From: Colwellia sp. TT2012
Lineage (GTDB): Bacteria > Pseudomonadota > Gammaproteobacteria > Enterobacterales > Alteromonadaceae
DNA: 64,000 bases
Direction: 5' to 3'
NCBI RefSeq assembly: GCF_001440345.1
Contig: NZ_LJYX01000006.1
Coordinates: 868,001-932,000 of the forward strand
Numbering within the stretch: the stretch's first letter is position 1; each line of letters starts with the position of its first letter. Below are positions 5,821-39,726 of the stretch, piece after piece. Below the pieces are notes generated by a model, which saw nothing but the letters and a program-made list of their open reading frames with translations, was not told where the DNA came from and made no database searches. The position numbers were made by a program, and so were the translations under genes.

Positions 5821-6014
5821 TTATGTCGTCTACTGTGCTCGTATAAAGATGCAACTATGCCGACATCTAAGTGGTGATCGGATGTTGAGAGGGTTATGTT
5901 TTTAACCAAAACAATAGAGCGCGTAAGTTACTGGAATCGTGTATCAACTCATTTTTCAGGGGGGATACTACCCATGAATAAATTTAGTAAGTCAGTTAAA
6001 TTAGGAGTATTGTA

Positions 6015-6269
6015 TTGCAAACTGTAGTCAAAAAATGGTTCCGAGATAAAGAATCTGGATTTCTGGATAACGGCAACGGCCCAGATATAATAGTACGTAA
6101 AGCCGATCTTGTTAATTGTGCTTTTTTAAAAGTTGGTGCCACTGTTGAGTTTGAATGCTACTCAGAAAAGCGAGGATTAATAGCCAAAAAGGTTAAACTT
6201 TCGAATCTGAAGCGGTCGCAACAAGGGATTCGAGATAATAAACCCTATCGCCCAGGTGTCATGACTTAA
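6015..6269 (+). CDS. Cold-shock-domain-like protein (TTG start)
   Basis: The 84-aa protein starts at TTG 6015, placed by AGGAG at 6003-6007. The segment VVKKWFRDKESGFLDNGNG resembles the RNP1 region of cold-shock proteins (VKWFN...GFG), and IIVRKADL matches the position of IFVHxSxL. The canonical aromatic residues are only partly kept, so nucleic-acid binding is likely but weaker evidence than for a true CspA. The C-terminal tail (KLSNLKRSQQGIRDNKPYRP) is basic. A 17-codon ORF at 5974-6027 overlaps the start in another frame (see findings). Confidence 0.6.
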   Translation: MQTVVKKWFRDKESGFLDNGNGPDIIVRKADLVNCAFLKVGATVEFECYSEKRGLIAKKVKLSNLKRSQQGIRDNKPYRPGVMT

Positions 6270-6500
6270 GTAATTAAGCGTAGAGCAAGGCGCTGCAATC
6301 TTATACTAAAAACGTCCAGGAAAAAATGGCTGCTAAATTTTTTTGCCGCTGAGCTGTGGCATTATCAATAAAAAATTTAATCTAAATTTGCATTAAGTGC
6401 CATCCACTTAATGACCGCTTTGTGGTATTCGTCAATAGTGCGTAGGAAGCTTAAATCTCATTAGTTGTAGCCATTCTCATTAGTTATTAATTAAACTATC

Positions 6501-12064: not shown

Positions 12065-12640
12065 ATGCCAAAGGCAAGTGATATAAAGAAAAATGCTGCG
12101 ATAGAGCATAACGGTAAAGTGTTAATTGTTAGGGGTATTACTCGTTCTGTACCGCAAGGTCGAGCAGGCGGCAGTTTATATAGAATGCGTTTATACGACG
12201 TAGTTACGGGTGCTAAGGTAGACGAAACCTTTAAAGCTGACGATATGTTAAGTTTTGCCGATTTAAGTCGCCGCCCAGCAATGTTTTCATATATTGATGG
12301 TGATGAATATGTCTTTATGGATAATGAAGACTACACGCCATATAACTTAAATAAAGAGTCTATCGCCGATGAGGTTCTTTTTATTAATGAAGAAACGCAA
12401 GGGATCTCTGTCATCATAGTTGACGATTCGCCAGTGGCTATTGATCTTCCTAGCAGTGTCGAGTTAGTCATTACAGAAACAGACCCTTCGATAAAAGGCG
12501 CTTCAGCGAGTGCTCGTACTAAGCCAGCTATTCTCTCTACCGGATTAACGGTGCAAGTGCCTGAACATATCTCTACCGGTGATAAAATTAAAGTTAATAC
12601 CGAAGACCGCAAGTTTATGGGACGTGCTGACTCGAAATAA
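12065..12640 (+). CDS. efpL: Elongation factor P-like protein EfpL (YeiP)
   Basis: The 191-aa protein has the three-domain EF-P fold order. The KOW-like N-terminal domain contains the loop [14 protein letters not shown] with Arg33 at its tip, the position of the modified Lys in EF-P. EfpL homologues use an unmodified arginine there. The OB-type C-terminus is [20 protein letters not shown]. EfpL binds ribosomes stalled at proline-rich or related motifs and aids peptide-bond formation. AGAGGA precedes the start, and a terminator follows at 12677-12707, so it is monocistronic. Confidence 0.9.
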
Positions 12641-20559: not shown

Positions 20560-20991
20560 ATGAGTCTTTTCAACGTATTTGATATCACGGGTAGTGGTAT
20601 GAGCGCACAATCAATCCGCTTAAATACTACGGCGAGTAATATTGCCAATGCAGAAAGCGTTAGTAGTAGTGCCGATAAAACTTACCGCGCTAGACATCCT
20701 GTTTTTGCCGCTGCCATGCTAGAAGCTGCCGCAGGACAAAGAGCAAGTGACGGTAGTAGCGTAGGGGTTACTGTTTTAGGGATTGTTGAAAGTGATAAAC
20801 CGCTAAATGTTGAATATGCACCTAATCATCCCATGGCCGATAAAGACGGTTATATCTATAAGCCCAACGTTAATGTTATTGAGGAAATGACTAATATGAT
20901 ATCAGCATCGCGTTCCTATCAAACGAACGTGCAGTTAGCTGAGTCGGCGAAAAACATGCTCAATAAAACCTTAATGTTAGGGCAAAGATAA
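20560..20991 (+). CDS. flgC: Proximal rod protein FlgC
   Basis: The 143-aa protein is full length: N-terminal ASNIANAESVS, core EYAPNHPMADKDGYIY, and the conserved C-terminal PNVNVIEEMTNMISASRSYQ helix ending LMLGQR. It builds the proximal rod. The last 90 or so bases of the gene are the template for the 158-bp tandem array that follows. The genuine copy differs from the repeats at a few bases, for example AAACGAACG against AAACTAACG. Confidence 0.95.
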   Translation: MSLFNVFDITGSGMSAQSIRLNTTASNIANAESVSSSADKTYRARHPVFAAAMLEAAAGQRASDGSSVGVTVLGIVESDKPLNVEYAPNHPMADKDGYIYKPNVNVIEEMTNMISASRSYQTNVQLAESAKNMLNKTLMLGQR

Positions 20992-20993
20992 TA

Positions 20994-21149
20994 ATGACTT
21001 ATAAGGCAGTGATTAATTTTGTTGATGAGGAAATGAATGATGTCACTAATACCGTACTATCAGCATCGCGTTCCTATCAAACTAACGTGCAGTTAGCTGA
21101 GTCGGCGAAAAACATGCTCAATAAAACCTTAATGTTAGGGCAAAGATAA
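20994..21149 (+). CDS. Micro-ORF 1: FlgC C-terminal helix, 51 aa
   Basis: The ATG lies in TAATAATG directly after the flgC stop, so reinitiation is possible. The product begins MTYKAVINFVDEEM and ends in SASRSYQTNVQLAESAKNML...LMLGQR, the D0 helix of FlgC. There is no strong ribosome-binding site. Expression is unproven. Confidence 0.35.
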   Translation: MTYKAVINFVDEEMNDVTNTVLSASRSYQTNVQLAESAKNMLNKTLMLGQR

Positions 21150-21151
21150 TA

Positions 21152-21307
21152 ATGACTTATAAGGCAGTGATTAATTTTGTTGATGAGGAAATGAATGATG
21201 TCACTAATACCGTACTATCAGCATCGCGTTCCTATCAAACTAACGTGCAGTTAGCTGAGTCGGCGAAAAACATGCTCAATAAAACCTTAATGTTAGGGCA
21301 AAGATAA
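21152..21307 (+). CDS. Micro-ORF 2: FlgC C-terminal helix, 51 aa
   Basis: Second tandem copy with the same predicted protein as the first and the same TAATAATG junction with the preceding ORF. Expression is unproven. Confidence 0.35.
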   Translation: MTYKAVINFVDEEMNDVTNTVLSASRSYQTNVQLAESAKNMLNKTLMLGQR

Positions 21308-21309
21308 TA

Positions 21310-21465
21310 ATGACTTATAAGGCAGTGATTAATTTTGTTGATGAGGAAATGAATGATGTCACTAATACCGTACTATCAGCATCGCGTTCCTATCAAACTA
21401 ACGTGCAGTTAGCTGAGTCGGCGAAAAACATGCTCAATAAAACCTTAATGTTAGGGCAAAGATAA
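21310..21465 (+). CDS. Micro-ORF 3: FlgC C-terminal helix, 51 aa
   Basis: Third tandem copy with the same predicted protein as copies 1 and 2. Expression is unproven. Confidence 0.35.
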   Translation: MTYKAVINFVDEEMNDVTNTVLSASRSYQTNVQLAESAKNMLNKTLMLGQR

Positions 21466-21467
21466 TA

Positions 21468-21635
21468 ATGACTTATAAGGCAGTGATTAATTTTGTTGAT
21501 GAGGAAATGAATGATGTCACTAATACCGTACTATCAGCATCGCGTTCCTATCAAACTAACGTGCAGTTAGCTGAGTCGGCGAAAAACATGCTAAATAAAA
21601 CCTTAATGTTAGGCAAAGATAATGAAAAATATTGA
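21468..21635 (+). CDS. Micro-ORF 4: FlgC C-terminal helix with altered tail, 55 aa
   Basis: The last copy lost one G in the GGG run. The ending LMLGQR becomes LMLGKDNEKY before a TGA at 21633. It is the unit nearest flgD, whose ATG is 38 bases further on. Expression is unproven. Confidence 0.35.
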   Translation: MTYKAVINFVDEEMNDVTNTVLSASRSYQTNVQLAESAKNMLNKTLMLGKDNEKY

Positions 21636-21673: not shown

Positions 21674-22366
21674 ATGGAAACAGTTAAAGGCACTAACCCG
21701 TTAGAGGGACTTCGTTGGAAAAAAGAAGAATATAAAGAGGTTGAAAAAGATAACGGCATGCTGACGCAAGCTGATTTCTTTGCGCTGTTAACTCAAGAAC
21801 TAGCGAATCAAGATCCAACCAAACCAGTTGATAATAACGAAATTATTTCTCAAATGACCGCCTTTTCAACTACTGATGGTGTACAAAGGTTGAATGATTC
21901 GTTTGATATCTTTGCCAGTTCTATGACGTCTAGCCAAGCACTGCAAGCTTCCTCGCTGGTTGGTCGAAGTGTTTTAGTTGAAGATAATGTCTTTGGCATG
22001 GAAGAGGGGCAATCGATAAAAGGTAAACTGGTTTCAGACAAACCAGCCAGTAACGTAAAAATTTATGTTGAAAATATTGCCGGTGAAATCATTCAAACTG
22101 TGCAAGTAGGTAAGGTCGATGCCGGCGGAATGAACTTTACTTGGGATGGTCAAACCGCAGAAGGTGAACCTGCTCCCGAAGGTGCTTACCGTTTCCGTAT
22201 TGTTGGTTTGGTTGACGGTCAAGCCTCTGAATTAGAGGCGATGACATACCGTAAAGTAGATAGCGTAACGTTAGCAGGTGCTGGCGGTAATATTATACTG
22301 AATCTTAACGGCGGTAGCTCCATGGTATTAGCCGATGTAGTTGAAATATCGGGTGGTGATAGTTAA
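21674..22366 (+). CDS. flgD: Hook-capping protein FlgD
   Basis: The 230-aa protein starts after TAGGAGTGG. The N-terminal FlgD region is clear (MLTQADFFALLTQELANQDP, then TKPVDNNEIISQMTAFSTTDG). It is followed by the FlgD Ig-like and Tudor domains (NFTWDGQTAEGEPAPEGAYRFRI). FlgD caps the growing hook and is needed in few copies. It is flanked by repeat arrays on both sides, which physically and perhaps translationally separate it from flgC and flgE. Confidence 0.93.
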   Translation: METVKGTNPLEGLRWKKEEYKEVEKDNGMLTQADFFALLTQELANQDPTKPVDNNEIISQMTAFSTTDGVQRLNDSFDIFASSMTSSQALQASSLVGRSVLVEDNVFGMEEGQSIKGKLVSDKPASNVKIYVENIAGEIIQTVQVGKVDAGGMNFTWDGQTAEGEPAPEGAYRFRIVGLVDGQASELEAMTYRKVDSVTLAGAGGNIILNLNGGSSMVLADVVEISGGDS

Positions 22367-22458
22367 GTTTTGAGTAAAATAATTAAATAGAAAGTATAAA
22401 TTTCACCTGACAGAGTAATAACAAGCATTTAACTGCCCAGGTATTTAGCAAAATAACG

Positions 22459-22842
22459 ATTTTTTAAGAGAGTTAGATTATGTCATTTAACTTTATTGGT
22501 GCATTAAGCGGTTTGTAACCGTGAAGTATTTAAGCGGGTTTACAACATCATAATTAGTTTAGTTTGTTGTCGCCGAACGACTTTTTAAGAGAGTTAGATT
22601 ATGTCATTTAACTTTATTGATGCATTAAGCGGTTTGTAACCGTGAAGTATTTAAGCGGGTTTACAACATCATAATTAGTTTAGTTTGTTGTCGCCGAACG
22701 ATTTTTTAAGAGAGTTAGATTATGTCATTTAACTTTATTGGTGCATTAAGCGGTTTGTAACCGTGAAGTATTTAAGCGGGTTTACAACATCATAATTAGT
22801 TTAGTTTGTTGTCGCCGAACGATTTTTTAAGAGGATTAAATT
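22459..22842 (+). repeat. Three 121-bp tandem repeats of the flgE translation start
   Basis: ATGs at 22480, 22601 and 22722 recur with an exact 121-bp period, and the true flgE ATG at 22843 is the fourth in phase. Each unit has TTTTTTAAGAGAGTTAGATT, then ATG and 12 codons (MSFNFIGALSGL, or D for G in the second unit), then TAA. The peptide is FlgE's N-terminus (MSFNIALSGL) with two inserted residues. After the stop, CGGTTTGTAACCG can form a small hairpin. Each unit ends with GTCGCCGAACGA. The units are nearly identical. Confidence 0.97.
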
Positions 22843-24147
22843 ATGTCATTTAATATTGCATTAAGCGGGTTAAACGCCGCACAAAAAGACTTAGATGTTA
22901 CATCAAATAACATTGCCAATGTCAACACGGTTGGCTTTAAAGAGTCCCGAACTGAGTTTGTTGATGTTTATGCTGCATCTTTACTGGCTGGAGGTAAAAC
23001 TAAAGTAGGCGATGGTGTTTTAACGGCGGATGTTGCTCAGCAGTTTTCCCAAGGTAGTATTCAATTTACCAATAACTCCCTTGATTTAGCCATTGCCGGT
23101 AATGGTTTTTTTGTCACCGTACCTGAAATTGACAGTTTAGATACCTCTTACACCCGTGCTGGTCAATTTAAATTAAACGACAGTAACTTTGTCGTTAATT
23201 CATCTGGTGGTTATTTATTAGGTTTTCCAGTTAATGCTGATGGCTCTTCTTCATCGGTAGCGCTAAGTACCGCATCGCCTTTACAAATACCGACAGCTTC
23301 TGGCGCACCATCAAAAACAAATGAGGTCGATGTTAAGATGAATTTACCTGCGGGTGACTCTATACCCGCTTTTGGCTTTGATCATACTGACCCACTAACG
23401 TATAACAACTCGACCTCGGTAACCATTTTTGATTCGTTAGGCGACAGTCATGTGATGACTTATTATTTTGTGAAATCAGCGCCGAATACTTGGGATATGT
23501 ACGCGGCCGTTGATAACCAATTGGTCGATATTACAGGAGGGCCTGTTAATAATGGTGCTGGTATTAACGGCGCACAATTAACCTTTCTTCCTAATGGTGA
23601 TTTCAATACTCAAGTTCCCGCTCTTATCCAAACAGCACCATTAGGTACGACGATATTAAGTAATGGCGCTGATCCTAGTCAGCAGATTATTGTTGATTTT
23701 AATTTAGATGGCACGGGGCCAAATGTTAATGAGCCAACACAATATGCTTCTAGTTTTGAAGTAACCTCATTAGAGCAAGATGGTTTAGCGGTAGGTCGAT
23801 TAACCGGTATCGACATTGATAGCGATGGCCTTGTGCGTGCCACTTATAGTAATGGTACCTCAGAGCCTTTAGCACGTATTGCTTTAGTTAGCTTTGCCAA
23901 TAATCAAGGGCTCACTCAAGTTGGCAATAGTTCATGGAAAGAGAGTATTGTTTCCGGTGAAGCGTTAGCCGGTGAAGCGGGCTCAGGTACTTTTGGTACC
24001 ATTAACTCCTCAGCATTAGAGCAGGCTAATGTTAATTTAACTACCGAACTTATTGATTTGATTTCTGCACAGCGAAACTTTCAAGCCAACTCGCGAGCAC
24101 TGGAAGTTAGTAACCAACTAAACCAAACTATCTTACAAATTAGATAG
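22843..24147 (+). CDS. flgE: Flagellar hook protein FlgE
   Basis: The 434-aa protein starts after AAGAGGA. The N-terminal rod-family motif (SNNIANVNTVGFKESRTEF), the AIAGNGFF segment in the D1 region, and the C-terminal ELIDLISAQRNFQANSRALE are all present. FlgE polymerises into the hook, about 120 copies per flagellum, and so needs far more synthesis than FlgD upstream. The three repeated false starts lie immediately 5'. A strong terminator follows, ending the flgBCDE unit. Confidence 0.95.
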   Translation: MSFNIALSGLNAAQKDLDVTSNNIANVNTVGFKESRTEFVDVYAASLLAGGKTKVGDGVLTADVAQQFSQGSIQFTNNSLDLAIAGNGFFVTVPEIDSLDTSYTRAGQFKLNDSNFVVNSSGGYLLGFPVNADGSSSSVALSTASPLQIPTASGAPSKTNEVDVKMNLPAGDSIPAFGFDHTDPLTYNNSTSVTIFDSLGDSHVMTYYFVKSAPNTWDMYAAVDNQLVDITGGPVNNGAGINGAQLTFLPNGDFNTQVPALIQTAPLGTTILSNGADPSQQIIVDFNLDGTGPNVNEPTQYASSFEVTSLEQDGLAVGRLTGIDIDSDGLVRATYSNGTSEPLARIALVSFANNQGLTQVGNSSWKESIVSGEALAGEAGSGTFGTINSSALEQANVNLTTELIDLISAQRNFQANSRALEVSNQLNQTILQIR

Positions 24148-32567: not shown

Positions 32568-32739
32568 TGCTTAATAAGCAATAGCAAAGCTATTGCAAGG
32601 TAGTAACAAAAATAACAAATAGCTGACGGTAAATATAATAACACCCAGCGGTTTTTATTAATAAAGAAAGAAAAGAGCAGAGGCTTGCCTTAACAAGCTT
32701 CTAATAACACAAAGTAAACGTACACATTAGGAGTTCATT

Positions 32740-33912
32740 ATGGCTTTATCAGTCGTTACTAACGTCGCATCATTGAATGCGCAACGTAACTTAACCAAGT
32801 CAGGTCAAGGGCTTGCCACATCAATGCAACGATTATCATCGGGTATGCGTATTAATAGCGCGAAAGATGATGCCGCTGGTATGCAAATTGCTAACCGCAT
32901 GACTTCGCAAATCAATGGTTTGGCGGTAGCTCAACGAAATGCTAATGATGGTATTTCAATGGCACAAACTGCTGAAGGGGCGATGCAAACTTCAACCGAT
33001 ATTTTACAACGTATGCGCGAACTAGCATTGCAATCGGCTAACGGTTCAAACTCTGCTGGCGATAGAGAGGCTCTACAAAAAGAAGTGACGGCTTTAAAAA
33101 ATGAGCTAACCCGAATTGCGGAAACAACACAATTTGGTGGCACTAATTTACTTGATGGTAGTTTTGGTACTAAAGCATTCCAAGTAGGTACAAATTCAGG
33201 TGAAATGATTACCATTGGCTTAAGAGATATCAGTGCGGATAGCCTTGGTGCTGTTGGTGTTCGTGAAGTTACCGCCGGTGGTGCTGTTACTCTGGCCCAA
33301 GGTGATGTTGCGGGTCTTCAAGATGGTGATGGTACACTAACTGTGGCCGTATCTGGTCAGTCCATTAGTGTTGATATGACTAGTGTTACAGATAACGTAA
33401 GCTTAACTAGCGCAATCAATGCGGCAGGTAATGGCTTAGGTATCACGGCTACCTTAAATACAGCAACCAGTGTTATAACTTTTTCAGGTCAAGTGGCAGG
33501 CTCTGCAACTACAGATACAATGGTTATTGCTGGGACAGATGACACGGGGGGAGCGCTTACGGGTGTAACCAGTGCCATTGCAGTCACTACTGATGTTCAT
33601 ACCGATACCATTGATATCTCTACTGTGGCAGGAACTGCGGATGCGTTAAAAATAATTGACCAAGCATTACTTGATATTAGCGATAGTCGAGCCAACTTAG
33701 GTGCGGTGCAAAATCGCTTTAGTCACACTATTGGTAACCTGGCTAACATTCAGGAGAATGTATCAGCATCGCGTAGTCGAATTCAAGATACTGATTTTGC
33801 AGTTGAAACGGCCATATTGACGAAAAACCAGATATTACAACAAGCAGGTACCTCAATTTTAGCGCAAGCGAATCAAATACCACAGGCAGCCCTTAGTTTA
33901 CTTGGTGGTTAA
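32740..33912 (+). CDS. Flagellin 1 (sigma-54-type promoter)
   Basis: The 390-aa filament protein has the D0/D1 N-terminus ([20 protein letters not shown], then [13 protein letters not shown]) and the C-terminal D0 helix ([20 protein letters not shown], ending LSLLGG). The central D2-like region (about residues 170-300) is Thr/Ser/Gly-rich and offers many possible O-glycosylation sites for the Maf system downstream. It is about 85-90% like flagellin 2 by eye, with long DNA stretches identical. By analogy with Vibrio flaA, the sigma-54-driven copy may be the essential one. Confidence 0.95.
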
Positions 33913-33937
33913 TAACATAGTAGTCATATCGTTATTT

Positions 33938-34228: not shown

Positions 34229-34315
34229 CTTAATTAGCAAGGGGCTTAATTAGTAAAAAATACAGCTCTGAAGTGAAAATTTAAACACATTATTTTTATA
34301 CTTAGGAGTTTCATC

Positions 34316-35482
34316 ATGGCTTTATCAGTAATTACCAATATATCATCATTAAATGCGCAACGTAATTTATCTAAATCAGGTGGAGCACTGGCCGAATCAA
34401 TGCAACGCTTATCATCAGGTATGCGAATTAATAGCGCGAAAGATGATGCGGCAGGTATGCAAATTGCTAACCGCATGACTTCACAAATAAATGGTTTAGC
34501 GGTAGCTCAACGAAATGCCAATGACGGTATTTCAATGGCACAAACTGCTGAAGGGGCGATGCAAACTTCAACCGATATTTTACAACGTATGCGCGAACTA
34601 GCATTGCAATCGGCTAACGGTTCAAACTCTACGAGTGACAGAGACGCACTACAAAAAGAAGTGACCGCCCTGCAAACCGAATTAACCCGTATTGCGGAAA
34701 CAACCCAATTTGGTGGTACCAATTTACTGGACGGTAGCTTTGGTACTAAGGCGTTCCAAGTAGGCTCTAACTCAGCAGAAACAATCACTATTGGCTTAAA
34801 AGATATCAGCGCGGATACCCTTGGTGCTGTTGGTATGCGTGAAGTCACCGCCGCCGGTGCTGTTGTTTTGGCCCAAGGTGATGTTGCGGATCTTCAAGGT
34901 GGAGACGGTGCACTAACGGTTGCCGTATCTGGTCAAACCATTAGTGTTGATATGACCAGTGTTACAGATAACGCAAGCTTAACTAGCGCAATCAATGCGG
35001 CAGGTAATGGCTTAGGTATCACAGCAACCTTGGATGCAACAGCTAGTACTATAAGTTTTACAGGTCAAGTGGCAGGCTCTGCAGTTGCAGATACAATGGT
35101 TATTGCTGGGACAGATGACGCGGGGGGAGCGCTTACGGGTATAGCAAGTGCCATTGCAGTCACTACTGATGTTCATACCGATACCGTTGATATCTCTACT
35201 GTGGCAGGAACTGCGGATGCGTTAAAAATAATTGACCAAGCATTACTTGAAATTAGTGATAGTCGTGCCAACTTAGGTGCGGTACAAAATCGCTTTAGTC
35301 ATACTCTTGGTAACTTGGCTAACATTCAGGAGAATGTATCAGCATCGCGTAGTCGCATACAAGATACTGATTTTGCAGTTGAAACGGCCATATTGACGAA
35401 AAACCAGATACTACAACAAGCAGGTACCTCAATTTTAGCGCAAGCGAATCAATTACCACAGGCTGCATTAAGCTTACTCTAA
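34316..35482 (+). CDS. Flagellin 2 (sigma-28 promoter)
   Basis: The 388-aa protein is a close paralogue of the preceding flagellin, with the same D0/D1 ends and a slightly diverged centre. It ends LSLL without the two glycines of copy 1. AGGAG precedes the ATG. The perfect sigma-28 promoter means it is made only after FlgM export, late in assembly, whereas copy 1 appears to be sigma-54 driven. No terminator was seen before flaG, so some read-through into flaG-fliD is possible. Confidence 0.95.
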
Positions 35483-35624
35483 TGATGGGGGAATAATTAG
35501 GTAATTACATCGTATTGATTTATATCGAGAAGGAGGAGTGATGACACATCTTCCTTTTCGCGTTTAATTTAGTACTAAATTCACTGGTTACTTTTGAGTA
35601 AAATAAGTCATTAAGGGGGTTATA

Positions 35625-37680: not shown

Positions 37681-39726
37681 TTGGATACCACAACAATAAC
37701 CATAAAAAAAATGTTATTAAACGCGACCTTAAAAGCTAATTTAGATGCGTTAAAGGTTTTTCTCCCAGCAATATATGAAATGTTCAAAAATTATACTCCG
37801 GTAGATGCTGGTGTGGTAATTAATGATGAAGGTAATATCGATCTCTTTAACCAACAGGCATTTGTTTATAGTGGGAGGCCAGAACAATTTGCAAAAGAAC
37901 AAGTAGCGTCGTTTATAAAAACACCACTTTTTTTCGATTTGAAAATGGACGAGATTAGTGGGAGTAAAATACTTTATGATCACCAACGAGTATTAGAAGC
38001 TATTGAAATAAAAAGAAAAGAAGAAGTTACAACTCCTGCAACTTTTAATGAAAAAAGGCTTGATTTCGTGTGTATGGTAGGTGTTGGGCTTGGTTACCAA
38101 ATAGAAGAACTACTAATTCAAAAACAAGTTCAGCATTTGTATTTGTGTGAACCATCTAAAGATATCTTTTATGCAATGCTTCATTGCATCGAATTCCGGC
38201 CGATTTTTGAACATTGTATTGCCAATGGTGGTGGAGTTACCATTAATACCGGCAATGACTATGACAATATGTTAAACGGAATTGATGATGTTTTAAAACG
38301 GATAGGCAGATTTTATTTACCCCGTTTTTATGTTTACAAACACTATGACAGTGCTACCACTGAAAGTTTTATTAGCAAACTCAAAAAGATTGGCTATAGG
38401 TTCGCTTTCGGTTGGGGCTTTATGGAAGATGAGATTATTGGTTTTCGTCATACCTTAGCGAATTTAAAGCTAGGCTACAAGGTTTGTAAAAAACCGTCAG
38501 AGTTCACTAACAAGGACCCTAACCGTGCTGTATTTATCGTTGCTAATGGCCCATCATTAGACTTTTCTTTAAAATTTTTAAAAGAAAATCAAGATGACAT
38601 TATCATTGTCAGTTGTGGTACGACATTACGTGTATTGCTAAAGCATAATATAAAACCGGATATTCATGTTGAAATGGAGCGTCCTGTTGAGATGTTACCT
38701 TTTATAGAGGAAATTGAACAGCAGCAAAAAAACTCAACTATTAAATTAAAAGATATTCAAATAGTAGCGCTTAATACCGTTTATCCTGAGCTATTAAAGA
38801 AATTTAAAACGCCCTTGTTGCTTAATAAACTTAATGATGCCGGTGGTGAGTTTATTGATGCCTTAGATGTTTCGAATGTATACGCTAGACCACCCCACTC
38901 TAATCCAACATGCCCTAATACCGCAGCAACACTTATCGTATCTTTAGGTTTTAAAGAAATATACTTTATTGGTACAGATTTTGGTTATGTCAGTAATGAA
39001 TATCATCATTCAAAAGATAGCATTTATTATGAGAAAGCCTATAGATCAAAAGCGAAAGAAAAAGATGGAAAAGATGTAATAGATGATCTGATGAATCGAA
39101 TAGATGGTTTGATGAATCAGGATTTTCAATGTAAAGGAAACTTTCGTGATTTGGTCTTTAGTAATCAAATTTTTGATGCTTCTAGAAAGCAAATCGAATA
39201 TTTAATTTCTAGTAATACAGACGTCCAGGTTTATAATTGTGCTGATGGTGCTTTAATCAAGCATGCAAAGCCGATGAAAATAGAAAATATTAATTTAATT
39301 AGTAATAATCAATCCAAAGAACTACTTCTAAACAAACTGTTGTCTGATGCTTTTGATAACAACGCTTTTACTAAAAAAACATTGGATAAAAGCATAAAAA
39401 AAACATTTTATGTATTAAAGGTCACTTTGGATCAATTAATGCTAATTATTAAGCAAAAGGTTAACTCAAGAGAAGAGTTAGCTGATTTATTTGTAGCTCA
39501 ACATAAATTACTTAGGCAGCTGTTGTTCCGTAAGGAATATCAGTTTAATTACTGGATGATACAAGGTACTTTTCAGTACTTACAAACGTATATAATGAGT
39601 AATACTTTAATGTATGATGATTTGGTAAAACGGAATGAATTTATGAATCACAGTCTTTTGTTATTTAGAGAACATGTTGATTTATTATATAAAAAATTAA
39701 TTGATCAACATGAATTGTCAAGTTAG
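37681..39726 (+). CDS. maf: Maf-type flagellin glycosyltransferase (DUF115)
   Basis: The 681-aa protein uses TTG 37681, seven bases after GGAG. The central DUF115/MptE-like domain (about residues 270-460) shows RAVFIVANGPSLDFSLKFLK, then IIVSCGTTLRVLLKHNIKPD and HVEMERPVEM, plus LGFKEIYFIGTDFGYV. Maf proteins transfer nonulosonic acids (pseudaminic or legionaminic) to Ser/Thr of flagellin before export. It sits just after the flagellin and cap genes and tail to tail with the sugar island, with a 46-bp gap. Transfer of the product of that island is inferred from this context. Confidence 0.9.
   Translation: MDTTTITIKKMLLNATLKANLDALKVFLPAIYEMFKNYTPVDAGVVINDEGNIDLFNQQAFVYSGRPEQFAKEQVASFIKTPLFFDLKMDEISGSKILYDHQRVLEAIEIKRKEEVTTPATFNEKRLDFVCMVGVGLGYQIEELLIQKQVQHLYLCEPSKDIFYAMLHCIEFRPIFEHCIANGGGVTINTGNDYDNMLNGIDDVLKRIGRFYLPRFYVYKHYDSATTESFISKLKKIGYRFAFGWGFMEDEIIGFRHTLANLKLGYKVCKKPSEFTNKDPNRAVFIVANGPSLDFSLKFLKENQDDIIIVSCGTTLRVLLKHNIKPDIHVEMERPVEMLPFIEEIEQQQKNSTIKLKDIQIVALNTVYPELLKKFKTPLLLNKLNDAGGEFIDALDVSNVYARPPHSNPTCPNTAATLIVSLGFKEIYFIGTDFGYVSNEYHHSKDSIYYEKAYRSKAKEKDGKDVIDDLMNRIDGLMNQDFQCKGNFRDLVFSNQIFDASRKQIEYLISSNTDVQVYNCADGALIKHAKPMKIENINLISNNQSKELLLNKLLSDAFDNNAFTKKTLDKSIKKTFYVLKVTLDQLMLIIKQKVNSREELADLFVAQHKLLRQLLFRKEYQFNYWMIQGTFQYLQTYIMSNTLMYDDLVKRNEFMNHSLLLFREHVDLLYKKLIDQHELSS

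Follow-up and report, generated by a model that had tools for sequence, protein, structure and literature searches.

Background

Variable-number tandem repeats occur in bacterial leaders. Another described element is mgtQ, an intergenic regulatory small ORF located between mgtC and mgtB of Salmonella, which the available text of PMC8092293 presents as translation-aborting and dependent on acidic residues. Further described systems concern the export of flagellar subunits. According to the accessible part of PMC10936197, early flagellar subunits of Salmonella carry a C-terminal export signal; FlgC residues 91-134 are deleted in the FlgC-delta-Ct construct, and in the corresponding part of FlgE the residues I376, R380 and Y382 are important. 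The accessible part of PMC8983047 describes an N-terminal hydrophobic signal of Salmonella subunits (FlgD residues 2-5) that acts with a separate gate recognition motif, by which the subunits dock first; FlgE residues 1-8 are retained in its FlgEshort construct.

The locus described here lies in a window of 64,000 nucleotides from Colwellia sp. TT2012 (contig NZ_LJYX01000006.1), a genome near C. marinimaniae (97% identity of the flgD protein). Two arrays of gene-edge copies are found in its flagellar operon, one of short FlgE-like ORFs ahead of flgE and one of longer FlgC-like ORFs, called mini-FlgC in the following, between flgC and flgD. Head-to-tail units and copy-number change are common to the flgE array and to variable-number leader repeats; unlike in those, the repeated unit of the flgE array is a gene edge that includes a ribosome site, an ATG and a stop, a part conserved above the rest. 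The likeness to mgtQ, as far as the available text of PMC8092293 goes, would lie in a very short operon ORF that is placed 5' of a gene (the one whose translation mgtQ affects) and overlaps stem-loops. However, mgtQ is a single ORF, whereas the flgE array comprises three copies that stem from the start of the very gene they precede, without known signal. Mini-FlgC spans the stretch removed in Salmonella FlgC-delta-Ct; in the accessible part of PMC10936197 this signal is part of a whole subunit, whereas mini-FlgC is a separate small ORF without N-terminal signals. The FlgE-like 12-mer covers the region of the N-terminal hydrophobic signal but is without the gate recognition motif of the subunits in the accessible part of PMC8983047. 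By title and beginning of abstract, no such gene-edge copies within a flagellar operon appear among the literature matches listed.

Structure of the flgE-like array

The relevant part of the operon, all on the plus strand, comprises flgC (20560-20991; rod protein, 143 aa; Pfam Flg_bbr_C and Flg_bb_rod, with matches to solved FlgC chains), flgD (21674-22366; 230 aa) and flgE (22843-24147; hook protein, 434 aa; Pfam FlgE_D2, Flg_bbr_C, Flg_bb_rod and LlgE_F_G_D1). flgD owes its name to the place between flgC and flgE; it separates both arrays and served as the anchor for finding relatives. Elsewhere in the window, a tandem gene pair (32727-33932 and 34302-35513, with ORFs at 32740-33912 and 34316-35482) is 88.5% identical in DNA and, judged from position, probably encodes flagellins, and a 153-base stretch (39296-39448) matches its own reverse complement at 67.5%.

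Three head-to-tail 121-bp units occupy 22459-22821 of the flgD-flgE gap, ahead of flgE (22843): unit 1 at 22459-22579, unit 2 at 22580-22700 and unit 3 at 22701-22821, all on the plus strand. Tandem Repeats Finder gives 22455-22853 with a period of 121, 3.3 copies and 97% match. Each unit consists of the tract TTTAAGAGAGTTAGATT, an ATG, 12 codons, a TAA and about 65 bases to the next unit; a short ORF with its ribosome site is thereby placed directly 5' of the operon gene flgE. The first-pass annotation had reported ATGs at 121-bp spacing, and this is exact for 22480, 22601, 22722 and 22843, the fourth being the true flgE start. It had rightly called the units almost identical, as units 1 and 3 agree over all 121 bases and unit 2 carries two differences, one of them giving G7D. 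The 12 FlgE-like codons and TAA that it had read are present in all three units, but the mini-ORF of unit 2 (22601-22639) reads MSFNFIDALSGL before its stop, not the MSFNFIGALSGL of units 1 (22480-22518) and 3 (22722-22760). The claim of one A/G-rich tract before every start holds for the units, which share AAGAGAGTTAGATT, but not for the real flgE, whose leader and ribosome site (22822-22842, plus strand; predicted less folded than unit 1) read AAGAGGATTAAATT.

Against unit peptides of the form MSFNFI(G/D)ALSGL, the real flgE start reads MSFNIALSGL. Since the real FlgE begins MSFNIALSGLNAA and is shorter by two codons there, the units are related to the present flgE start but have diverged from it and are not exact copies. 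By eye, the spacer contains an 11-base echo of flgE, TTAAGCGGGTT, which makes the unit a composite rather than a simple copy. A dispersed or mobile element was rejected, since at E 0.001 the unit matches its own genome at this locus only.

Distribution and conservation of the flgE-like units

Full units were found in five of the 39 Colwellia genomes searched. The window has three, C. marinimaniae (G006) at least three (one on L005 and two on L020, contigs that end inside the array), G022 and G023 two each and G029, on a cut contig, at least one; the other 34 genomes have none. The survey of unit number in related genomes, proposed in the first-pass annotation as a check, thus revealed a copy number that varies among relatives. 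Occurrence of the unit in four further Colwellia genomes shows that the array is no peculiarity of a single assembly. As in variable-number tandem repeats, the units are tandem and differ in number between relatives. Their identity is 100% in C. marinimaniae for two full units and 99% for one cut unit, and 92-94% in DT_17, DT_22 and G029. The five genomes yielded 11 unit ORFs, every one of them with ATG, 12-codon length and TAA intact. Three further genomes contain decayed remnants: in G024 (DT_18) the ATG has become ATT with the 12-codon frame and TAA retained, in G011 (GAB14E) the start is deleted, and in G009 the remnant is weak. From 44 loci with a full flgD-flgE gap, 33 were compared with shuffled sequences (11 gaps shorter than 45 bases were left out), and at six of these the unit match was better than in all 200 shuffles: the window, L007, L008, L009, L016 and, weakest, L028.

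The 5' part of the unit, i.e. the section of ribosome site and mini-ORF, is preserved better than the spacer. Compared with each DT_17 or DT_22 unit, window unit 1 has a single difference over 64 positions of the 5' part and 7-11 over the 57-58 of the spacer (Fisher p 0.001 to 0.026); for window unit 2 the 5' part shows 2 of 64 (p 0.007 to 0.08). These pairwise tests are not independent of one another. Among the six distinct units, variable columns number 4 of 62 in the 5' part and 13 of 60 in the spacer (p=0.019; neither the DT_18 unit nor the cut L005 one enters this count). Fourfold sites differ between the window and DT_22 at 42 of 96 in flgD and 51 of 187 in flgE, pooled 93 of 283, and comparison of 1/64 with this pool yields p=5e-9. 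Measured by the fourfold pool, neutral drift would have separated the 5' parts much further. Fewer differences than at fourfold sites are seen in the spacer as well (p=0.001 to 0.04), so that a recent exchange of whole units between lineages is possible.

Coding changes among the six distinct units are S2L, I6M and G7D. All three are nonsynonymous, and there is no sign of selection on the 12-mer in this set; the constraint, if real, therefore cannot be assigned to the peptide. Between window unit 1 and the DT_18 unit, 20 of 66 positions disagree in the 5' part and 29 of 64 in the spacer, and both synonymous and nonsynonymous changes are visible by eye. The apparent constraint on the start region comes from about two lineages.

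Over 45 bases, the real flgE ribosome site folds at -2.7 versus -6.7 kcal/mol for unit 1; the unit site is predicted more folded than the real one at 37 C, and the picture is mixed at 10 C. Of stem-loops affecting the downstream site, the mgtQ-like trait, we found weak folds and an access to the site without clear dependence on unit number. The fold z-scores of the units are just -1.3 to -1.8, on which ground RNA structure was rejected as the cause of their conservation, and a leader whose units uncover the real flgE ribosome site was given up for want of a clear trend in predicted access by unit number. The first-pass annotation had regarded the units as ribosome-loading upstream ORFs or leader modules. 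Conservation of the start region and mini-ORF above spacer and fourfold sites agrees with such a role, but since the units' site is more folded and unit number has no consistent effect on access, a simple booster is not favoured.

Mini-FlgC, a candidate small gene

A second, larger array, absent from the first-pass annotation, lies in the flgC-flgD gap (20900-21623; 158 bp x 4.6 by Tandem Repeats Finder). Each 158-bp unit is an ORF with an ATG two bases past the previous TAA, 51 codons and a FlgC-like end SASRSYQTNVQLAESAKNMLNKTLMLGQR; flgC is the parent of the copies. On the plus strand, copies 1 (20994-21149, corresponding to the FlgC C-terminal helix), 2 (21152-21307) and 3 (21310-21465) are 51 aa long, and copy 4 (21468-21635) has 55 aa, its last residues being altered by a one-base deletion near the end. 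AlphaFold predicts a single helix (mean pLDDT 92.7). Flg_bbr_C (PF06429) scores 17 bits on mini-FlgC of the window, below the gathering cut-off of 23, and 53.9 on parent FlgC; mini-FlgC of L028 and L043 gave no match to this family at E 0.01.

An intact mini-FlgC ORF of 44-55 codons is present in 11 of the 37 Colwellia genomes whose flgC-flgD gap is readable (G029 is cut and G034 has no flgD match, out of 39): the window, L005, L008, L009, L049, L010, L053, L043, L016, L037 and L028. Its start, taken as the first ATG, GTG or TTG, overlaps the flgC stop or sits three bases after it, and is GTG in L009, L010, L053 and L043; the flgC end of L010 contains a run of N. By eye, mini-FlgC is decayed in L048 and L026. 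DT_17 (L007) is without it and the sister DT_22 has it. On the flgC-flgD tree the distribution is patchy, with at least 7 changes, 4 of them forced by supported branches, and the tree does not establish a single origin. By our own reading, the equivalents of FlgE I376 (I or L), R380 and Y382, the residues named in the accessible part of PMC10936197, are kept in 10 of 11 mini-FlgC species, G009 (L028) having C for R. Beyond Colwellia, 25 flgC loci of other genera (L064-L088, from 25 of 135 family genomes with a flgC match) have no mini-FlgC; 23 of the gaps measure 13-39 bases, and those of L064 and L065 (146 and 125 bases) hold no mini-FlgC-like frame. In ten genomes of other genera, every stretch hit by the mini-FlgC query lay within a flgC-like frame of 135-177 aa, and in G029, the eleventh genome searched, it found no match at all, flgC included.

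Since selection on the tail may partly reflect copying from flgC, the segment that differs in length was tested apart. By our own reading, 8 of 11 mini-FlgC share here a segment four codons longer than in flgC (EEMNDVTNTVIS versus EEMTNMIS); MAFFT sets a five-column gap at this place, and L010, L053 and L043 differ more. Using the first copy of each genome and simple counting over few related sequences, we obtained pS 0.553, pN 0.163 and a ratio of 0.29 for the 12-codon segment (codon bootstrap 0.13-0.60; 8 genomes, without the divergent L010, L053 and L043), and pS 0.669, pN 0.036 and a ratio of 0.05 for the shared tail (7 genomes, L028 being omitted for its insertion). All 11 genomes pooled give pS 0.60 and pN 0.29 for the segment. 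Compared with its own flgC over the last 27 codons, the copy shows synonymous/nonsynonymous differences of 1/0 in the window, 0/0 in L005, 5/0 in L008, 13/2 in L009, 7/0 in L049, 8/1 in L016, 3/0 in L037, about 10-18/12 in L010, L053 and L043, and 6/15 in L028, the last count being inflated by the insertion that shifts the comparison. In C. marinimaniae and the window, copy and parent are identical or nearly so. As in a protein-coding gene, the frame is kept open and synonymous changes are in excess. Mini-FlgC thus shows a pattern of purifying selection, one that conversion by flgC and exchange between species can imitate. From its sequence it looks like a genuine small protein gene, a candidate as such, and it is a stronger finding than the flgE units.

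Several observations concern the surroundings of mini-FlgC. Of the 7 genomes that have flgE units or remnants, 6 carry it, versus 5 of the 30 without (Fisher p=0.0012); tree-aware pairing left two supported independent pairs only, which do not decide for a linkage of the two features. In the interval between mini-FlgC and flgD of L016, L010, L043 and L053, an Ala/Thr-rich N-terminal extension of flgD seems, by eye, to start immediately behind mini-FlgC. In 8 of the 37 genomes, all without mini-FlgC, the flgC-flgD gap measures exactly 51 bases (L006, L007, L025, L034, L035, L044, L050 and L051). Most of the 51-base gaps read begin, by eye, with a small ORF overlapping the flgC stop as TAATG or TAGTG, an arrangement that suggests translational coupling.

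Gene-edge duplications elsewhere in the genome

Twenty 20-kb stretches of the same contig (400 kb) were used as controls. They contain four arrays with a period of at least 100, one of 48 and one of 33. L104 is the repeated 3' end of an ORF (5943-6358; four copies of 115 bp) and L110 the repeated 5' end of a minus-strand ORF (12252-12548; doubled, start codon included); L113 and L118 lie outside ORFs of at least 100 codons, and L105 within an ORF. In C. marinimaniae G006, L104 has eight matches at 84-99% identity (five of them 89-91%), of which seven are clustered on a single contig and the eighth is on a different one; G029 matches at 80% over 98 bases, and DT_17 and DT_22 match the 43-base gene end alone (88-91%). 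For L110, the matches are 88% and 92% in C. marinimaniae, 73-79% for a single copy in DT_17, DT_22 and G029, and 69% in GAB14E. Pooled, the control arrays have ten matches to C. marinimaniae at 84-99%, seven of them at 88-92%, compared with 99-100% for the flgE unit; in DT_17, DT_22 and G029 the flgE unit reaches 92-94% where L110 has 73-79%, a comparison that favours its being kept. Gene-edge duplication is a habit of this genome, and because such tandem duplications recur in it, the origin of the flgE array is ordinary.

Origin and possible function

The flgD-flgE gap holds an array whose copy number changes between species, which has decayed elsewhere and which is conserved unevenly, its start region being kept while its spacer drifts. 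We consider it quite possible, if short of probable, that the flgE array is an old, diverged tandem duplicate of the flgE translation-start region, kept in one clade for an action in cis, and that mini-FlgC is a real small gene. The array would have been born from the kind of tandem gene-edge duplication that recurs in this genome. One clade would then have kept the start region and the 12-codon ORF, as these short intergenic ORFs might take up ribosomes in the flgD-flgE gap, let them go again and in this way tune flgE translation in cis. In the flgC-flgD gap, the same kind of event may have produced copies that became, or stayed, the small gene mini-FlgC, which begins at the flgC stop, probably through translational coupling. 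Several findings speak against this account of the flgE units: 34 of the 39 Colwellia genomes searched lack full units, DT_18, GAB14E and, weakly, G009 have decayed ones, the constraint comes from about two lineages, the spacer too has diverged less than fourfold sites, the coding changes are all nonsynonymous, the fold z-scores are weak, and predicted access to the real ribosome site shows no clear trend with unit number.

As to the flgE units themselves, a cis-acting array of intergenic mini-ORFs appears to be the likeliest function, with a neutral repeat as a close rival. In the latter case the flgE 5' edge was duplicated, multiplied and homogenised by unequal crossing-over without any role, and the mini-ORFs exist only because a start codon was copied along with it. 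This is a serious explanation, though on balance a somewhat doubtful one. The four other arrays of period at least 100 bp in 400 kb, one at a gene 3' end and one at a 5' end, are what it would lead us to expect, as are the change of copy number and the decay in relatives and the three of three nonsynonymous coding changes; the lower coding density of piezophilic Colwellia, reported in the available text of PMC7542103, fits as well. Such a repeat should not, however, preserve its start region so much better than its spacer and the fourfold sites, nor keep 11 of 11 unit ORFs intact in five genomes. That the whole array might be an assembly artefact deserves hardly any credence: contigs of C. marinimaniae do end in the array, as those of short-read assemblies do at repeats, but the units of DT_17 and DT_22 are diverged, non-identical and located inside contigs of 20 kb and 661 kb.

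The 12-mers could also act in trans, competing at the export gate by means of the FlgE N-terminal hydrophobic export signal without the gate recognition motif. The Salmonella hydrophobic signal acts with a separate gate motif in the accessible part of PMC8983047, and the 12-mer covers the first part only; since docking there starts by the gate recognition motif, which the 12-mer is missing, and since selection on the peptide is not seen among the six distinct units and the start codon is lost in DT_18 and GAB14E, this action is distinctly improbable. A broader idea embraces both arrays. The FlgC C-terminal helix carries a published export signal, and mini-FlgC can accordingly be read as a decoy or regulator of export. 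Mini-FlgC in four copies and the FlgE 12-mer in three might be isolated export signals made into genes, i.e. non-exportable decoys or timers of the rate of rod and hook export that are produced beside their source subunits; we regard this as unlikely.

Implications

On the reading we prefer, with the flgE units acting in cis and mini-FlgC being a real gene, the flgE array would serve the operon as an element that could vary in strength with the number of its units. If neither array works, the locus would neatly illustrate how short ORFs that resemble regulators come about by tandem duplication of gene edges. If mini-FlgC is made, it would be a small protein that consists of the export-targeting helix of a subunit alone, and thus a natural test of the signal that was defined by deletion in Salmonella.
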